Shown here: piece after piece, positions 4,373 through 18,666 of the stretch
Layout: every line of letters begins with the position of its first letter
Position numbering within the stretch: the stretch's first letter is position 1
NCBI RefSeq assembly: GCF_007362955.1
Contig: NZ_CP041696.1
Span: 3,658,001-3,722,000 of the forward strand
Reading direction: 5' to 3'
Length of the DNA stretch: 64,000 nucleotides
Origin: Lysinibacillus fusiformis
GTDB taxonomy: Bacteria; Bacillota; Bacilli; Bacillales_A; Planococcaceae
Program-made: the position numbers and the translations under genes
The notes under the pieces: model-generated
What the model was told of the DNA's origin: nothing
The model's input: only the letters and a program-made list of their open reading frames with translations
Databases searched by the model: none

Positions 4373-6034
4373 ATGAAGATGTTACTGCAATTAAAAGGAA
4401 TTTGTAAAAGTTATTTGGGAGATACGATTCTGTCAAATATTTCAATGAAAATAGAACGAGGAGAAAAAATGGGTCTTATTGGTGTGAATGGAGTAGGTAA
4501 ATCAACCTTACTAAAAATTATTGCTGGCGATACGTCTTATGATAATGGGGAAATCAATATTGGCAAAGCTATGAAAATTGGCTATTTGCGTCAACATAGT
4601 GGACTGCAAATGGACAATACAATTTGGAGCGAAATGTTAAATGTCTTTACTGAGCTTCGTGGAGTTGAACAAGAGTTACGGGAGTTGGAATGTGCTATGA
4701 GCGAGCCTTCTTTGGTAGATAACACCGTAAAGTTTGACAACATGATGAATCGCTACGCAACAAAATCAGAATGGTTCATGGAACAAGGTGGCTATGAGAT
4801 AGAGGCGAAAATCAGGCGTATGTTAAATGGGATGGGCTTTAAAAATAAGTCTATGAATACCCCGATTCATAAGTTAAGTGGTGGTCAGAAAACGAGACTT
4901 GCACTCGCTAAAATTTTGCTGGAACAACCAGATTTACTGATGCTTGATGAGCCGACTAACCATTTGGATTTTACTACTTTAGCTTGGTTAGAAGGTTATT
5001 TACGATCATATCCTGGCGCAATTCTAGTAGTTTCGCATGATCGTTACTTTTTAGACTCTCTAGTTAACGTGATTTATGAAATTGAGCGAACAGAAGCGAT
5101 ACGATACACAGGTAATTACTCGAAATATGTGGAGAGTAAAATGAAAAATAGAGACATTCACGCAAAAAAATATAACTTGCAGCAGCAACAAATTGGAAAG
5201 ATGGAAGATTATATCCAGCGCAATATTACAATGGCGACGTCTTCTAAAAGTGCAAAAAACAGGCGAAAGCAGCTTGAGAGAATTGAGCGACTAGAGAAAC
5301 CGAAGAGAGACTTAAAACAGGTACAAATGTCCTTCCCGTTGGAAAAACCATCACATAAAGATGTGTTACAAGTTCGAGACATGAGTATCTCCTTTATGGA
5401 ACAATATGAGCAAAAGTCTCTCATGAAACATATAAATTTCCAGCTACAGAGAGGTGACAAGGTAGCATTAATCGGTCCAAATGGAGTTGGAAAGTCAACA
5501 TTGTTGAAGACTTTGCTAAAGGACTATCAACCAGACAGTGGTGTCATCGAGTGGGGGCATGGTGTATCGATTGGTTATTATGACCAGGAACAATCAACGT
5601 TACATCCAGATAATACGGTATTAAACGAACTTTGGAGCAGGTTTCCTCATAGCGAAGAAGCAAGTATTCGTTCGGTACTCGGGAATTTCTTATTTACAAG
5701 TGAAGATGTCTATAAAAAAATATCATCGCTGAGCGGTGGTGAAAAAGCACGTGTTGCATTAGCTAAGTTGATGTTGCAAAAAGCAAATGTTCTCATGATG
5801 GACGAGCCAACAAATCATTTAGATTTATTTAGTAAAGAGGTATTAGAACAAGCACTATTAAATTACGAGGGCACACTATTTTTTATTTCACATGATCGTT
5901 ATTTTCTAAATAAATTAGCAGATAAAATGCTGGAATTACATTCAACTGGAGTCATTGCTTTTAATGGCAATTATGATGACTATGTTACTGCTAAATCACA
6001 AAATGACAAACAGTCGCTATTGCTGAAGAGCTAA
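4373..6034 (+). CDS. ABC-F family ATPase (ribosome-associated, YdiF/resistance-like)
   Basis: This is a soluble protein of about 553 residues with two ABC cassettes and no membrane domain. Cassette 1 has Walker A GVNGVGKST, signature LSGGQKTR, Walker B LLMLDEPTNHLD and SHDRYF. Cassette 2 has GPNGVGKST, LSGGEKAR, VLMMDEPTNHLD and SHDRYF. The interdomain linker includes the basic YIQRNITMATSSKSAKNRRK segment, the part that reaches the ribosome in ABC-F proteins. The family either tunes translation or protects ribosomes from antibiotics. The long attenuator leader suggests drug-inducible expression and so favours a resistance role, but the linker also resembles housekeeping YdiF. ATG 4373 is chosen because AAGGAAAG lies 5-12 bases upstream. 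Confidence 0.88.
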   Translation: MKMLLQLKGICKSYLGDTILSNISMKIERGEKMGLIGVNGVGKSTLLKIIAGDTSYDNGEINIGKAMKIGYLRQHSGLQMDNTIWSEMLNVFTELRGVEQELRELECAMSEPSLVDNTVKFDNMMNRYATKSEWFMEQGGYEIEAKIRRMLNGMGFKNKSMNTPIHKLSGGQKTRLALAKILLEQPDLLMLDEPTNHLDFTTLAWLEGYLRSYPGAILVVSHDRYFLDSLVNVIYEIERTEAIRYTGNYSKYVESKMKNRDIHAKKYNLQQQQIGKMEDYIQRNITMATSSKSAKNRRKQLERIERLEKPKRDLKQVQMSFPLEKPSHKDVLQVRDMSISFMEQYEQKSLMKHINFQLQRGDKVALIGPNGVGKSTLLKTLLKDYQPDSGVIEWGHGVSIGYYDQEQSTLHPDNTVLNELWSRFPHSEEASIRSVLGNFLFTSEDVYKKISSLSGGEKARVALAKLMLQKANVLMMDEPTNHLDLFSKEVLEQALLNYEGTLFFISHDRYFLNKLADKMLELHSTGVIAFNGNYDDYVTAKSQNDKQSLLLKS

Positions 6035-6125
6035 CAACATCATGAACATGCCGAGGGGGCCTCCTGCTAAAAATAATGGCCATACTATTATAGATTTAAA
6101 ACAATATGAAAAGAGGAATATAGAT

Positions 6126-6884
6126 ATGTCTAATGAAAATCGAATTGCAGTAATTACTGGAGCAGGTAGTGGAATTGGCAGAGCTACAAGCATTAAATTT
6201 GCCGAACATGGCTACAAAATTGTAGTGGTTGATTTTAACGAAGTGACAGGTGAAGAAACGCTTGCACTGATTCGACGTAACGGTGGAGAAGGTCTGTTTG
6301 TCAAAGCAGATGTTTCAAAGGTAGAAGATGTTAAAAATTATGTAAATCAAACTGTGGATACTTATGGTTGTATTGATGTATTTTTCAATAACGCTGGCAT
6401 TATCCAAAAGTTTGCACCCTTCACCACTGTTGAAATGGAAGAGTATGATCGAATTATGGATATTAATGTGAAAGGCATTTTTCTTGGCATGAAATATGTC
6501 ATCCCTGTGATGGAAAAGCAAGGAAAAGGAGCGATTATTAATACAGCTTCCTCTGCTGGTATTCGTCCAGAGCACAGTATCGCAGTTTATTCTGCAAGTA
6601 AACATGCTGTCATCGGCTTAACGAAGGGGGCAGCGATAGAATATGCCAATAAGGGCATTCGCATTAATGCTGTATGTCCTGGAGGAATCGTTACACCTTT
6701 GTTCAAAAGTGTTGGTGAAACACTTGAAAAAACAGGGTATGTTCCAGAAGAAATGTCGCGCGTACGCATGGGGCGTCACGGTCAGCCAGAGGAAGTTGCA
6801 GAAGCTGTATTATTTCTAGCTTCTGATAAATCAAGCTTCATGGCTGGTGCCATTGTGACAGTAGATGGCAGTTTAACCGTGTAA
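6126..6884 (+). CDS. SDR-family NAD(P)-dependent oxidoreductase
   Basis: This 252-residue classical short-chain dehydrogenase has the cofactor motif TGAGSGIGRA near the N-terminus, then NNAG. The catalytic Ser lies in NTASSAGI, with YSASKHA (Tyr and Lys of the YxxxK motif) and PGGIVTP. An acidic residue (VVVDF) at the end of strand 2 suggests NAD(H) preference. The C-terminal VTVDGSLTV is typical. The frame opens earlier at 6042, but ATG 6126 has an AGAGGA site and begins exactly at the usual SDR N-terminus. The substrate is unknown. It stands alone after the ABC-F gene. Confidence 0.88.
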   Translation: MSNENRIAVITGAGSGIGRATSIKFAEHGYKIVVVDFNEVTGEETLALIRRNGGEGLFVKADVSKVEDVKNYVNQTVDTYGCIDVFFNNAGIIQKFAPFTTVEMEEYDRIMDINVKGIFLGMKYVIPVMEKQGKGAIINTASSAGIRPEHSIAVYSASKHAVIGLTKGAAIEYANKGIRINAVCPGGIVTPLFKSVGETLEKTGYVPEEMSRVRMGRHGQPEEVAEAVLFLASDKSSFMAGAIVTVDGSLTV

Positions 6885-7182
6885 AAATCTAGTTTTTTGC
6901 CGTAGAAATTGAGAAAAAATGACTGTGGTTTTTCCTAAATTAAGTAACTGAGCTCCGTGATGTTTAGCTATTTATTAGACAGTCACATCTTTGGAAAAGG
7001 ATTGCTTTTTGCTTTCTTTGGCCTGGGATGTGGCTGTCTTTTTGTCTTCATTCAGCTATATGATTGGTTTGTAAGGGGTTAAGCTATATACGTTTAAAAT
7101 CTGTTAGTTAAAAATATTTTGGAGAAATGTAGATAATAAAATAAAATAGTGTTATGGTAAGAACTAGCTAAATAAAATTATC
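6885..7182. other. Leader/promoter region before the rib operon
   Basis: No gene is seen in about 300 bases. The end of the region (about 7120-7175) is AT-rich and should contain the promoter for the riboswitch-controlled rib transcript, but I cannot fix -35/-10 boxes with confidence. Confidence 0.35.
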
Positions 7183-7296
7183 CTTCGGGGTCGGGTGAAA
7201 ATCCCAATCGGCGGTGATGAAGAAATTCAAAGTCCGTGAGCGAAAGCTGATTTGGTGCGAATCCAAAACCGACAGTTACAGTCTGGATGGGAGAAG
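7183..7296 (+). ncRNA. FMN riboswitch (RFN element), copy 1
   Basis: A 114-nt aptamer core with hallmark FMN riboswitch segments: CTTCGGGGTCGGGTG, AATCCCAATCGGCGGTGAT, AGTCCGTGAGCGAAAGCTGA and GATTTGGTGCGAATCCAAA, then ACCGACAGT and TCTGGATGGGAGAAG. The P1 stem is TATCCTTC paired with GAAGGGTA, with wobble. FMN binding normally favours the downstream terminator and shuts off riboflavin genes. It differs from copy 2 at a single base (C at 7279 versus T at 7548). Confidence 0.96.
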
Positions 7297-7365
7297 GGTA
7301 AAAGTGTAAGCTTTTTAAATTCGTTTGAGTTTATGAGGTCTATTTGTGTACGCTTTTATAAATCC

Positions 7366-7397
7366 ACTTCCCATCGTCTTCGTAGGGGAGTTTTTTT
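7366..7397 (+). terminator. Terminator after FMN riboswitch 1
   Basis: ACTTCCC (7366-7372) pairs with GGGGAGT (7385-7391, one G-U), followed by seven Ts. This is the expression platform of riboswitch copy 1. Confidence 0.8.
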
Positions 7398-7451
7398 GTT
7401 CTTCTAACAGAAGTAAGCTGATTTAGCTAAAATTGAATAGTTTGAAATGTT

Positions 7452-7565
7452 CTTCGGGGTCGGGTGAAAATCCCAATCGGCGGTGATGAAGAAATTCAAA
7501 GTCCGTGAGCGAAAGCTGATTTGGTGCGAATCCAAAACCGACAGTTATAGTCTGGATGGGAGAAG
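7452..7565 (+). ncRNA. FMN riboswitch (RFN element), copy 2
   Basis: A second complete 114-nt FMN aptamer lies 155 bases after the first and is identical except for one base. Its P1 stem is a perfect 8-bp pairing, TGTTCTTC with GAAGAACA, differing from copy 1 in compensated positions, so both P1 helices are intact. It has its own terminator at 7645. No gene lies between the copies. Confidence 0.96.
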
Positions 7566-7644
7566 AACAATGAGATGGCAACCTATTGAAAATTGTGATA
7601 TCGATTAGGTTTATTTGTTGACGTCTTATAGTATGAAATCTCCC

Positions 7645-7680
7645 AAACCCCTTATATGTAAGGGGTTTTTTGTTTTTTCT
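7645..7680 (+). terminator. Terminator after FMN riboswitch 2
   Basis: A perfect stem AAACCCCTTA/TAAGGGGTTT with a short loop is followed by TTTTTTGTTTTTT. This is the expression platform of riboswitch copy 2, directly upstream of the rib genes. Confidence 0.88.
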
Positions 7681-7741
7681 TAGCTGGATTAAATGGCCAT
7701 CTAGAGGCAAAAGTTCGCTCGTTTTGCAGTTGAGGAGGGCT

Positions 7742-7846
7742 GGATAGAACGTTCAAAGTGACGGATAGAACGTTCAAAGTGACGGATAGAACGTTCAAAG
7801 TGACGGATAGAACGTTCAAAGTGACGGATAGAACGTTCAAAGTGAT
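7742..7846 (+). repeat. Five tandem copies of a 21-bp repeat in the rib leader
   Basis: The unit GGATAGAACGTTCAAAGTGA plus one base (C, or T in copy 5) is repeated five times starting at 7742, 7763, 7784, 7805 and 7826, then a partial GGATAG. Each unit contains the palindrome AACGTT. The array lies between the second riboswitch terminator and ribE and is multiple-of-three in length, so it stays open in several frames but has no gene character. Confidence 0.95.
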
Positions 7847-7883
7847 GGATAGCATCAACAAACGATAGAAAGTAGGGGGCAAA

Positions 7884-8522
7884 ATGTTTACAGGGATTAT
7901 AGAAGATGTTGGCGCCGTTAAAACCTTGCAAAACAATAAACAAAGTATGAAAATAACCGTTATTTCTGCCAAGATGGTCAGTGATGTGAAGCTTGGTGAT
8001 AGTATCGCGGTCAATGGTGTTTGTTTAACGGTGACGCATTTTAATGGGCAGGAGCTGACGATGGACGTGATGCCTGAAACGGTGAAAGCTACCAATTTAC
8101 AGCAACTCGCAATTGGCGATGCGGTGAATTTAGAGCGGGCCATGCCTGCAGATGGACGTTTTGGTGGTCATTTTGTGTCTGGACATGTTGATGGTGTGGG
8201 GAAAATTTTACGCAAGCGGCCGATGGCAAATGCCGTATATATTGATATTGAGCTCTCCGAGGAATTGATGAGCTATTGTATACCAAAAGGTTCTATTACA
8301 ATCGACGGTACGAGTTTAACAATCTTTCATGTCGAAAATAACAGCGTCACTGTATCACTCATTCCTCATACGTACAAGGAAACGATTTTAGGTATGAAAA
8401 ATGTTGGTGCATCCGTCAATATTGAAACCGATTTGCTTGGTAAATATATTCTTCATCAGCTACAGCGTGGTCAGGTAACATCCGCTATCACGCGAGAGTA
8501 TTTAGTAAAACATGGATTTTAG
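7884..8522 (+). CDS. ribE: Riboflavin synthase alpha subunit
   Basis: This 212-residue enzyme converts two 6,7-dimethyl-8-ribityllumazines to riboflavin plus a pyrimidinedione. The N-terminus [10 protein letters not shown] is diagnostic. Two lumazine-binding repeats follow: [11 protein letters not shown], then [11 protein letters not shown] in the first, and [11 protein letters not shown] plus [10 protein letters not shown] in the second. ATG 7884 has an AGGGGG site at about 7873-7879. It is the first gene of a ribE-ribB-ribH operon under two FMN riboswitches. The expected upstream ribD (deaminase/reductase) is absent. The length is normal. Confidence 0.96.
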
Positions 8523-8535
8523 GAGGCGATATCAG

Positions 8536-9165
8536 TTGTTACATTCAATTGAAGAGGCTTTAGAGGATTTAAAACAAGGTAAAATGATTGTCGTGGTGGA
8601 TGATGAGGATCGTGAAAATGAAGGTGATCTACTGGCACTTGCGGAGTTTAGTACCCCTGAAACTATTAACTTTATGGCGACATACGGTAGAGGGCTTATT
8701 TGTACACCAGTTTCACAGCAACTCGCTCAAAAATTAGCATTGCATCCAATGGTGGTAAACAATACAGACAATCACCAAACAGCCTTCACCGTTAGTATTG
8801 ACTACAAGCATACAACAACTGGTATTAGTGCTTATGAACGGGCAATGACGATTCAAAAAATGCTAGAACCACAAACGCAAGCCGTTGATTTTCGTAGACC
8901 GGGACATGTATTTCCCCTTATTGCGAAAGAAAATGGCGTCTTAGAACGCAGAGGCCATACAGAGGCTACGATTGACTTAGCGAGACTATGCAACAGTATT
9001 CCGGCAGGCATTATCTGCGAAATCATGGGAGATAGTGGCGAAATGCTACGTTTTAATGATTTAGTGCAATATGCAGCACAACATCATTTGAAAATGATTT
9101 CGATTGAGGCATTAGCCGCCTTTCGACGTAAGCAAACAAGTGTTGAAAACAAAATAAACGTATAG
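8536..9165 (+). CDS. ribB: 3,4-dihydroxy-2-butanone-4-phosphate synthase (RibB only)
   Basis: The product makes the four-carbon precursor of lumazine from ribulose 5-phosphate. [14 protein letters not shown] is the metal/substrate motif, then [34 protein letters not shown] and [11 protein letters not shown]. It ends at about 209 residues, where Bacillus RibBA proteins continue into a GTP cyclohydrolase II domain, so only the RibB half is present. The chosen start is TTG 8536, nine bases after a perfect AGGAGG (8521-8526) that overlaps the ribE stop, indicating translational coupling; ATG 8512 is possible but lies before that site. Confidence 0.93.
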
Positions 9166-9178
9166 AAGAGGAGCATTC

Positions 9179-9649
9179 ATGATGGGCAAAACTTTTGAAG
9201 CACAGTTAATCGGATCAGACTTAAAAATCGCTGTAGTAGTAGGGCGATTCAATGAATTTATTACAAGTAAATTATTAGACGGTGCATTAGATGGACTAAA
9301 ACGTCACGGCGTAAGCGAGGATTTGATAGATGTTGCTTGGGTGCCTGGTGTATTTGAAGTACCATTTATCGCCAAACAACTAGCAGAGACGAAGAATTAT
9401 GACGCAATCATCGGATTAGGGACGGTCATCCGTGGCTCTACAACCCATTATGACTATGTATGCAACGAGTCTGCAAAAGGCATTGCAAGCGTGTCACTTG
9501 CTACAAATGTTCCAGTTATTTTCGGTATTGTGACTACTGAAAATATCGAGCAAGCAATCGAACGTGCGGGTACTAAATCAGGTAACAAAGGTTACGATGC
9601 AGCAATGTCCGCTATTGAAATGGCGAATTTGAAAAAAATGATTGGTTGA
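9179..9649 (+). CDS. ribH: 6,7-dimethyl-8-ribityllumazine synthase
   Basis: This 156-residue lumazine synthase joins the pyrimidine and four-carbon riboflavin precursors and normally assembles as a 60-mer shell. Visible motifs are [40 protein letters not shown] (phosphate and catalytic His region) and [15 protein letters not shown] with [11 protein letters not shown] 9179 or 9182, after AGAGGAG, is the start. It lies 13 bases after ribB and is the last gene of the operon. Confidence 0.96.
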
Positions 9650-15913: not shown

Positions 15914-18186
15914 GTTCGACACGTTCTTAGCTTAAATGAGATGTGGTTAACACAATCTCGGTAAAGGCTAGGCAATTTATATTGAAGGATATTATCAAGG
16001 AGTCGAATGATGAGGTAACGCTCTGAAAGGTTCCCCCTGCGTCGAATAGCACGCTGATTAGTAAGGAAAAGTGTGTTATAAGCTCGGCTAATAGGCGCAA
16101 GAATTTACCGTAACAGTTTGGCTGACGAAATCCTACCCGATGGGGTGGTGTAAGTCATAGTGCTTGGGTTGAACGAATACGGTGAGAATGCAACATAATA
16201 GGTTAATAAACTATATTGCTGGCGAACCTCTGAATGTACGGGTCTAGAATGGCAATACATAGAAATGTGTATATCACTAAATGTGAGGTTAGTTGTGGAT
16301 GAGTAAGAATCAACAATATAAAAGTCCATCTTGTGTTACAGGCACATGCAATGCTAACAGGCTCATAGGAGGCACCTAAGTTTGTTCCATAATAGTTAAT
16401 ATTCAACGTGGTAAGCTGATAACGTGGAGAGCTTACTCTCGATGAGACGTTGGAAAGGGAAATAATCGTGAGATTAGCGAATATATAACTTTTCTTTATA
16501 TCAGTGAAAGTGGTGGCACAGTACCAGTGAAGCGTGTAATGAACGTGGAGGGATCGCCACTAGATTAATACAAGATTTATTCACCATGAAAGGCAGTTCT
16601 TCAACGATTAATAAGGTTCTCGTGAGACTAATAGAGGTTCAGCTCCAAAAGGAGCCACCGACTTGTTAAAACGAAAGAAACTGAGACATAACGAGTACTA
16701 TGACATGCAAAAACAATTTGATTTGCTATATGCTCGCAGTGTTGATGGTCAAAATTTTTATGATTTATTAGATATAATGCAATCGCGTGAAAACATTCAA
16801 TTAGCGTACCGTAATATCAAGAAAAATATGGGTAGTAAAACGGCTGGGTTTGATGGTCAAACAATTGAAGATATTAAACAAGGTTTTCCATCGAAAGGAA
16901 CACCGCAAGGTGGGATACTATCCCCACTCCTATCAAACGTCGTATTAAATGAACTTGATTGGTGGGTTAGTAATCAATGGGAAAGCTATGAAACGAAGAG
17001 AGCTTACAAAAACAAAATGAGTAAGAATCAAGCGTTAAAGAAAACGAATTTAAAGCATTGCTATATCGTGAGGTACGCAGATGACTTTAAAATTCTTTGT
17101 CGAACACGTTCTCAAGCAATACGAATGTTCCATGCAGTTAAAGATTTCCTCTCTACACGTTTGCATCTAGAAATTAGCGATGAGAAATCGAAAGTTGTGA
17201 ATCTAAAGAAAAATTCTTCCGAATTTCTAGGCTTTCGCATTAAAGCCCATTCTAAGAAAACAGCGAAGCGTACCCTATATGTTGCACATTCACATATGAC
17301 GAAGAAGGCTTTAAACAATGCACAAATAAAACTGAAAAAAGCAGTAAAGACTATACAAAAACATCAATGTATTCAAAATGTTTGGCGATTTAATACGGTT
17401 GTCATGGGTATCCAAAACTATTACGCCGCAGCGTCACACATTACAGATGATTTAACTGAGCTGAACCATCGTATTCATAGAACGTTACACAATCGTTTAA
17501 AAGGCATTAGATAAAGAAGCGACGCTTCAAGATTTCACGAAATCCTTACTAAAAAGGTATAGCGGATACGAATGCAAGATTTATAAAATTAAAGAAATGG
17601 CACTCGCTCCAATTCATGCCCAACGTTGCCAAATAAACCTAAACTTCTCACAAACCATTTGTAATTATACTACCGAAGGTAGAAATAAAATTCATCATAG
17701 TTTGAAAGCTATTAATAAACAAACGCTTATTACTGTGATGCAACAGTTCATTCCTCAACGCTCCATTGAGTATAACGATAATCGTATTAGTCGATTTATT
17801 GCGCAATATGGTAAATGTGCTGTAACTGGGGTTGAACTTAGCTTTGATGACTGTCACCACAAAACTCCATATTATTTATCGCAAGATGATTCCTACGGTA
17901 ATTTAATTATTGTCAATGAATCAATTCATCGACTAATCCATCTTAAAGACCATGAGAAAATAAAAGTACTCTTGAAAGTACTTCATCTAGATAAAAAGCA
18001 ACTAAAAAAAGTAAATGAATTGCGTGAGCAATGTCTGAACGAAGCAATCTAATTCCACATTACATCTTGTCCTTACATAAAAATCGAATGAATTGAATTA
18101 ATTGGAACGCCGTATGCGGTGAAAGTCGCTTGTACGGTGTGAAGTGGGGGAAAAGCTGGAGATAACGTCAAAGGCTTACCTATCAC
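15914..18186 (+). mobile_element. Group II intron (decayed)
   Basis: The 5' part (15914 to about 16660) is a long non-coding, structured region starting GTTCGACACG, as group II introns start GUNYG. It is followed by the reverse-transcriptase ORF and then a clear domain V at about 18105-18140 (GCCGTATGCGGTGAAAGTCGC with TTGTACGGTGT; the catalytic triad position reads CGC). Domain VI follows and the 3' end is near CTTACCTATCAC (about 18186). Exact ends are inferred. The encoded protein is broken, so the intron should not be self-mobile, though RNA splicing could remain. Confidence 0.85.
16663..18052 (+). pseudogene. ltrA: Group II intron reverse transcriptase/maturase with HNH domain, deleted and frameshifted
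   Basis: The first frame (16663-17514) begins like intron-encoded RTs (LRHNEYYDMQKQFDLLYARS, NIQLAYRNIKKNMGSKTAGF). It then jumps from TIEDIKQ directly to GTPQGGILSPLLSN, losing over a hundred residues with RT motifs 1-4 including the first catalytic Asp. The YADDFK motif and maturase part remain. The frame stops at 17514, but ALDKEATLQDFTKS continues in the +1 frame from 17504 to 18052, so a single-base insertion near 17503 splits it. The second part carries an HNH nuclease (CAVTG, DDCHHKTPYYLS, YGNLIIVNESIHRLIH). Two independent lesions make it a pseudogene. Confidence 0.88.
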
Positions 18187-18328
18187 TATAAAAATATTCT
18201 TAAAAGAACTTTACTAACATTTGTTGAAATATTTCCTTTAGCTTTTATATTTAAGTGGTGAGTTGTATTTATATAGTAAAATGTCATATATAATTTAACT
18301 GGGTTATGAAGAAATTTTAAAAATTATA

Positions 18329-18362: not shown

Positions 18363-18666
18363 CAATTCAAAAATATTTGTATAGAACAAAGGCTATGAAA
18401 AGAAATAGTATCAATTATTTTTACGAACAGAAAGTTACCGGTTGATGAGAGGTGCATGTAAAACGATTGAGAATTCATCTTGGAGCTGTGTACCGAAAAG
18501 ATCATTCTAAGTAGGCTACGCCGGTAAGCACCCGTAATCATGTGCGAGAGTATCGTCAAATGACCGTACTTCTTAAGGTAAGTAATGTGAATTGCTTATA
18601 AATTAAAGGTGGTAACACGAGTTGAATCGTCCTTTTGGTTAATCCAAAAGGGCGTTTTTTTTTATT
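18363..18666 (+). ncRNA. T-box riboswitch, candidate Phe (UUC) specifier
   Basis: The leader has T-box landmarks in order: AGAAAGTTACCGGTTGATGA in Stem I, GAATTCATCTTGGAGCTG on the 3' side, AGTAGGCTACGCCGG, then the T-box AAAGGTGGTAACACG (18605-18619). A terminator follows: CGTCCTTTTGG with CCAAAAGGGCG and nine Ts (18628-18664). By comparison with leaders reading GAA-codon-ATC, the specifier is UUC (Phe). The UGGU bulge predicts an A discriminator base, which tRNA-Phe has. Uncharged tRNA would stabilise the anti-terminator and switch on the permease. The T-box is clear; the Phe reading is inference. Confidence 0.88.

Follow-up and report, generated by a model that had tools for sequence, protein, structure and literature searches.

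Two FMN riboswitches in series before a ribE-ribB-ribH operon of Lysinibacillus fusiformis, and related arrays in its family

Two nearly identical FMN riboswitches before a single riboflavin operon raise the question of what the second copy does, how the pair came about, and how ordinary such an arrangement is. The pair lies in a stretch of 64,000 nucleotides from Lysinibacillus fusiformis (hereafter, the window), in which cmscan gave two matches to RF00050 (gathering cut-off, 66.2 bits), both spanning model positions 1–138 of 138. The two copies are denoted as slots A and B.

7177–7302, + strand: FMN riboswitch aptamer of slot A (RF00050, 111.9 bits, E = 3.1e-25)
7180–7187 and 7293–7300, + strand: P1 strands of slot A
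7446–7571, + strand: FMN riboswitch aptamer of slot B (RF00050, 114.6 bits, E = 5.6e-26)
7449–7456 and 7562–7569, + strand: P1 strands of slot B

The cores of the two aptamers (7188–7295 in slot A and 7457–7564 in slot B) differ at 1 of 108 bases, while their P1 stems are unlike yet paired in each copy (ATCCTTCG/GAAGGGTA versus GTTCTTCG/GAAGAACA). No open reading frame of at least 80 aa was detected on the + strand between the copies, and a 95-aa frame on the − strand (7423–7710) overlaps aptamer B. The original prediction had described two complete RFN aptamers one base apart, P1 stems that differ but still pair, a separate terminator for each aptamer and no gene in between, all of which was borne out, with the terminators located at 7366–7397 and 7646–7671. 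These two complete aptamers of the same family stand before one operon and presumably share FMN as their ligand, and each is followed by its own expression platform, with a terminator and a competing hairpin in both slots. The operon contains the following genes.

7884–8522, + strand: ribE, riboflavin synthase (TIGR00187, 263.6 bits), the first gene downstream of the slots
8536–9165, + strand: ribB, DHBP synthase only, with no GTP cyclohydrolase II domain (TIGR00506, PF00926)
9179–9649, + strand: ribH, lumazine synthase (TIGR00114, 192.2 bits)

Bifunctional models cover ribB only over their DHBP synthase part. The stretch that separates terminator B from ribE contains five copies of a 21-bp tandem repeat, GGATAGAACGTTCAAAGTGAC (7742–7852); with up to 3 mismatches allowed, no further copy was found in the rest of the window. 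Elsewhere in the window, the RNA family scan also gave group II intron matches (RF02004 at 15982–16176 and RF00029 at 18105–18189) and a T-box leader at 18386–18637 (RF00230, 108.8 bits). A candidate start of the leader was located upstream of slot A.

7120–7158, + strand: putative leader promoter region (scan match TGGAGA-16-TAAAAT at 7120–7147 plus a block at 7150–7158)

The promoter match is weak (9 of 12 positions; 5 promoter-like sites were seen versus 2.1 expected). The block at 7150–7158 reads TGTTATGGT here and TGTTATCGT in most relatives, and is kept upstream of slot A in 28 genomes with doublets.

These doublets were found by scanning 32 genomes of the genus with RF00050, as the original prediction had proposed, which gave 28 doublets, one triplet (G011) and one quintuplet (G025); at least two FMN switches in series are hence present in 30 of the 32 genomes. 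The view that double FMN switches are not a standard arrangement was not upheld, as such doublets are also already in print. In the two other genomes, G005 (86% complete) and G016, the only FMN copy adjoins a RibU-like gene. The host genome of the window (G000) consists of one contig of 4.97 Mb, and the same kind of doublet recurs in 28 of the 32 genomes; the doublet is therefore neither chance nor an assembly duplication, and the latter was ruled out. The copies of the genus doublets are spaced by 241–369 nt. In five genomes (loci L045, L060, L065, L070 and L071), an inserted repeat (GCCTCCGGACG..ATTACGCCAAGGCGAA-like) sets slots A and B farther apart, and a similar stretch comes after the FMN switch in G156. 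The host genome holds a third RF00050 match at 3379213, before a gene for an ECF transporter S component (PF12822), for which no RibU-specific model gave a match; this component is presumably RibU. In G011, the array and the beginning of the operon appear once more after a run of N (L035, about 5949–8564). This second FMN cluster looks like a scaffold duplication, and the genome was counted as a triplet; the case is a warning that short-read assemblies can miscount FMN arrays.

The output platform of slot A contains the following elements.

7284–7376, + strand: antiterminator of slot A (aptamer 3′ end GATGGGA pairs with the terminator 5′ arm TCCCATC, with a long hairpin between them)
7337–7346, + strand: GGTCTATTTG element, candidate NusG pause (its CTATTT departs from TTNTTT at one base)
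7366–7397, + strand: intrinsic terminator of slot A (−10.1 kcal/mol, T7 tract)

In RNA folded as far as the terminator 5′ arm, the antiterminator has a fold energy of −25.2 kcal/mol. When the platforms of the 28 doublet genomes were aligned, pairing in this competing hairpin was kept in 98.4% of 756 cells, the competing-hairpin structures of both slots having been taken from the same alignments that were used to score them. Both-side changes were seen in 2 of 27 helix pairs, most pairs being invariant or changed on one side. The hairpin takes a mean of 6.9 of the 10.3 nt of the terminator 5′ arm, and a partition function computed with the whole aptamer placed this arm on the aptamer 3′ side in 27 of 28 genomes. 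As controls, the arms of 28 further terminators in the window were grafted in place. None of the 28 reached the 3′-side capture of slot A in G000 or in G009, while its pairing on either side was matched by 2 of 28 (G000) and 3 of 28 (G009). An exact TTNTTT is present in 18 of 28 slot A platforms and CTATTT in the other 10, among them the window. The dedicated terminator scan of this analysis found the terminators of both slots, while a consensus scan reported that of slot B and not that of slot A, probably because the slot A loop is approximately 12 nt, versus the 3–8 nt allowed. In these folding models, slot A is a textbook-like antiterminator.

The platform of slot B is built differently.

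7553–7645, + strand: P1-competing hairpin of slot B (aptamer 3′ end TGGGAGA pairs with TCTCCCA at 7639–7645, abutting the terminator)
7608–7617, + strand: GGTTTATTTG element, candidate NusG pause (exact TTNTTT; function suggested by the accessible part of PMC12288461)
7646–7671, + strand: intrinsic terminator of slot B (−11.3 kcal/mol), found also by the consensus scan

Pairing in this hairpin was kept in 99.6% of 486 cells (27 distinct rows in the 28-genome alignment), with both-side changes in 1 of 18 helix pairs and most pairs invariant or changed one-sidedly; the numbers of covarying pairs and of their types were not above those of shuffles (321 and 313 of 500). The P1-competing hairpin shares just about 2 nt with the terminator arm, the mean over 28 genomes being 2.0 of 8.8 nt, and the partition function with the whole aptamer set the arm on the aptamer 5′ side in all 28. 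Of the 28 control arms, 6 reached this level of 5′-side capture in G000 and 3 did so in G009; for pairing on either side, the counts were 12 and 7, respectively. Since the capture is often matched by control arms and the arm overlap is small, it is less certain that FMN controls terminator B than that it controls terminator A, and the modelled wiring of slot B by 5′-side capture is weakly supported. An exact TTNTTT and a CUCCC are present in the slot B platforms of 28 of 28 genomes.

The age of the pair was examined by comparing the slots among the 28 doublet genomes, whose ribE genes diverge by up to 29%. The P1 of slot A is mostly ATCC/GGGT (ATTC in G003 and G014; GGAT in G012, G023 and G029), and that of slot B is of the GTTC/GAAC type, so that P1 types are slot-specific in 28 of 28 genomes. 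Likewise, in all 28, platforms A and B align across genomes and not with each other. The two slots therefore predate the split of these genomes, and the pair is, by this comparison, old in the genus.

The aptamer cores behave otherwise. Within a genome they differ by 0–4 substitutions (26 doublet genomes without indels), with 0 in G021 and G030. The mean distance between cores A and B of the same genome was 2.18 (indels counted once) versus 3.08 (sd 0.17) when the B cores were re-dealt among genomes, and none of 20000 permutations was as low as 2.18 in this test, which ignores relatedness. Set against the nearest relative, the within-genome distance was the smaller of the two in 15 genomes and the larger in 8, with the remaining 5 of the 28 tied. 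At alignment column 61, four genomes (G000, G013, G021 and G030) share a rare A, each carrying this base in both of its slots, while A–B agreement at columns 19 and 97 was not beyond expectation. Such near-identical cores fit homogenisation plus constraint.

RF00050 was present in 260 of 261 genomes of the family, and its match positions were read in 79 chosen family genomes. An order-level search gave the same family only, and the survey hence covers one family. A total of 88 riboflavin loci were tabulated, one per genome, including 30 from the genus; the others were chosen mainly for at least three RF00050 matches, together with some having two, and do not form a random sample. Loci beginning with ribE comprised 59 doublets, 7 triplets and 3 singles, where "ribE-first" denotes that tblastn with one query gave no ribD match, a definition by which a very divergent ribD could be missed. 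Those beginning with ribD comprised 5 singles, 4 doublets, 5 triplets, 3 quadruplets and 1 quintuplet, plus G035. A tie of doublets to ribD loss was ruled out, arrays being found both with and without ribD.

The longest array, the quintuplet of G025 (L033, 3221–4145), has a spacing of 201–202 nt and identical platforms in units 2–4, and stands before ribD-ribE-ribBA-ribH. Four complete FMN riboswitches in series precede ribD in G064 (L096) and G066 (L097); the count of four in G068 is uncertain, as a run of N interrupts its third unit. In G035 (L124, 646–3034), two FMN riboswitches precede ribD, with a 200-nt ribD fragment between them. This arrangement is a partial duplication of a switch plus the gene start, and the locus was counted by script as a doublet although the ribD fragment separates its copies.

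A terminator was found in each slot of all 28 doublet genomes, 54 of these 56 terminators being at least as stable as −8 kcal/mol. Over the 88 loci, 175 of the 189 units gave one, 14 units having none and 10 a terminator weaker than −8 kcal/mol. In unit 5 of G025, unit 3 of G011 and units 1 and 2 of G068, the scan picked the P1-competing hairpin before the T run. The expression used for the TATTTG element caught 109 of 189 units and missed many variants, and the genus counts were accordingly redone on alignments. A shuffled-arm test, which has little discriminating power, ranked 31 of 189 units among the top 5%. Near the aptamer 3′ end, the captured share of the arm amounted to 0.67 in slot A and 0.23 in slot B of the genus doublets, and 0.10 in the inner array units of G025 and G011; folds with the whole aptamer place the low-share arms of slot B and the inner array units on the aptamer 5′ side. 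The capture values of array units were reached by 3 of 28 control arms in G025 and 0 of 28 in G066, and their pairing on either side by 3 of 28 and 1 of 28, respectively.

How sensors and platforms have evolved in these arrays was examined by nearest-copy comparison. Family-wide, the nearest copy of an aptamer lay in its own genome in 73 of 178 cases and in another genome in 89, with 16 ties. The corresponding counts were 6, 56 and 2 of 64 in the genus, which has many close relatives, and 20, 1 and 2 of 23 in g13. The platform of unit 5 of G025 is 91% identical to that of unit 3 of G011 and 47–51% to those of the inner units of G025, while its aptamer is 97–98% like the inner aptamers of the same genome. 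Similarly, the last aptamer of G064 is 97–99% identical to its own inner aptamers, and 94%, or up to 96%, to the last aptamers of G025 and G011. In G066 and G011, this signal of the aptamers is less marked (95–98% and 95–96% within the genome, respectively). By this comparison, the last unit's platform in long arrays is an orthologous slot. We read the pattern as sensors that evolve in concert while outputs stay specific to their slots; gene conversion is the likely homogenising process.

These observations lead to a mechanism that we regard as well founded on the whole: two complete, independent FMN-sensing transcription attenuators in series would control ribE-ribB-ribH, in a pair that is old, with concerted sensors and slot-specific platforms. 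RNA polymerase would meet decision A and, after read-through, decision B. At low FMN, the competing hairpin would open P1 and the terminator 5′ arm would be held, so that the polymerase passes each slot; at high FMN, the aptamer would close and the terminator form. In slot A, the terminator arm would be held by the aptamer 3′ end, and in slot B, as folding suggests, by GGGGU beside P1 on the 5′ side. An FMN response of each copy is presumed from its complete aptamer family match, and pausing at the TTNTTT-type elements would be expected from the motif. Total read-through would be the product of both decisions, giving deeper repression, half-repression at lower FMN and a somewhat steeper response. 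With a 10% leak per terminator, a simple series model gave a maximal repression of 100-fold for two switches versus 10-fold for one, an EC50 of 0.47 K and a 10–90% range of 49-fold versus 81-fold for one. In this model, the main gains of the series are deeper repression and a lower EC50, with a moderate gain in steepness. Tighter repression by two FMN switches in series, proposed in the original prediction, is supported as far as sequence can tell, and agrees with a published "pseudo-cooperative" class (PMC9481103, from the portion available).

It may be asked whether both slots sense FMN. By a division of labour, slot A alone would be a true FMN switch, and slot B would be mostly constitutive or otherwise controlled, or the two would answer to differing FMN levels, so that the pair would not be redundant. 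The unequal capture of the terminator arm in the 28 genomes (6.9 of 10.3 nt in A versus 2.0 of 8.8 nt in B) points in this direction, as does the finding that 12 of the 28 unrelated control arms equal the window's slot B arm in upstream pairing. Nevertheless, slot B retains a full aptamer, CUCCC, an exact TTNTTT and a terminator in 28 of 28 genomes, its arm is set on the aptamer 5′ side in every one of them, and a conserved aptamer would be hard to explain were B not sensing FMN; we consider such a division rather unlikely.

The origin of the pair was ascribed in the original prediction to recent duplication or to the loss of an intervening ribD, neither of which agrees well with the survey. 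If the near-identity of the cores were mere youth, the single difference in the window and the absence of any in G021 and G030 would be readily explained. However, slot-specific P1 stems and platforms are common to 28 genomes with ribE differing by up to 29%, and platforms A and B are clearly unlike, whereas a recent copy of the whole unit would have left them alike; a recent duplication is hence extremely improbable. The joining of two switches by loss of ribD between them would suit the 28 doublet operons of the genus, which lack ribD while it sits elsewhere, and in G035 a ribD fragment separates two FMN copies, with ribD after the second. Against this, in 13 of the 14 loci having at least two FMN copies plus ribD, arrays of 2–5 copies lie wholly upstream of ribD, and an FMN-ribD-FMN-ribE order is absent among the 88 tabulated loci, except for the partial case of G035. 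This route is thus very improbable. The preferred reading therefore stays with two old attenuators in series, in which sensors are kept alike and outputs are not. More tentatively, and with somewhat more doubt than belief, the family may be viewed as having dynamic arrays of one to five switches, whose sensors are homogenised across slots by gene conversion or unequal crossing-over, each with its own output and with two opposite antiterminator wirings, namely 3′-side capture in slot A and 5′-side capture in slot B and the array units. If this is true, evolution could tune how deep the feedback goes, and at which threshold it sets in, through the length and wiring of the arrays.

The position of ribD bears on which steps of the pathway such feedback would reach. 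In 29 of 32 genus genomes, ribD adjoins a divergent GTP cyclohydrolase II gene away from the ribE operon; in G000 the pair lies at 3415742–3417340. The smallest distance from ribD to the RibU-type FMN switch was 17,155 bases among the 24 genomes having both on one contig, and no Rfam match was found in the three ribA-ribD regions scanned (L072, L073 and L074). From sequence, the first riboflavin steps therefore appear to be free of the FMN switches that restrain the final steps, and the early steps may lie outside FMN control. The unlinked ribA-ribD pair without an FMN riboswitch occupies L072, 3021–6537 (G000 C1:3415520–3419036), where, as read from open reading frames, it is followed by an FAD monooxygenase-like gene and then a HAD-type gene, with a divergent GntR-like gene. 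G025 and G011 retain ribD-ribE-ribBA-ribH beneath their arrays, and G016 gave no RibD above the cut-off and no RibA match.

The ribD FMN riboswitch of Bacillus subtilis is present in a single copy. NusG-dependent pausing was reported at the ribD and fmnP FMN switches of this species, where NusG reads TTNTTT (PMC12288461, in the part accessible). The ribD switch described there shares with the present slots an FMN aptamer and transcription attenuation, and a TTNTTT-type element likewise lies upstream of the terminator here. As for tandem switches, the available portion of PMC9481103 lists 31 FMN doublets and four triplets and includes FMN in its "pseudo-cooperative" class, whose tandem FMN switches are, like those of the window, two complete aptamer-plus-platform switches in series. 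That portion gives no FMN quadruplet or quintuplet, and its glycine quadruplets are two double-aptamer switches. It also describes the triple c-di-GMP-I riboswitch of Bacillus thuringiensis, in which switches for an identical ligand in series give a more digital output; this system concerns another ligand and other genes and was tested by experiment, whereas the window is known from sequence. Furthermore, the sections of PMC12452182 at hand report FMN doublets (87%) and triplets (13%) before ribE, ribB and ribH of Bacillota, sharing ligand, operon and phylum with the window. They give no arrays above three, unlike the four- and five-copy arrays described here. The words "duplication", "recombination" and "Lysinibacillus" were not found in the main text as available, and its set may well include Lysinibacillus.

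Among the matches listed in the open-licence literature, no report was found of FMN arrays with four or five complete switches, of a sensor-platform mosaic or concerted evolution of tandem riboswitches, or of two antiterminator wirings in one FMN pair. The pattern described here suggests that the sensor of a riboswitch and its output module follow different evolutionary rules. Related bacteria offer a natural series of one to five like switches before the same pathway, with which the idea that more copies give tighter, more digital control is directly testable using natural parts. Within this series, the doublet of the window is an instance of the published tandem FMN arrangement, and an ordinary one for Lysinibacillus.
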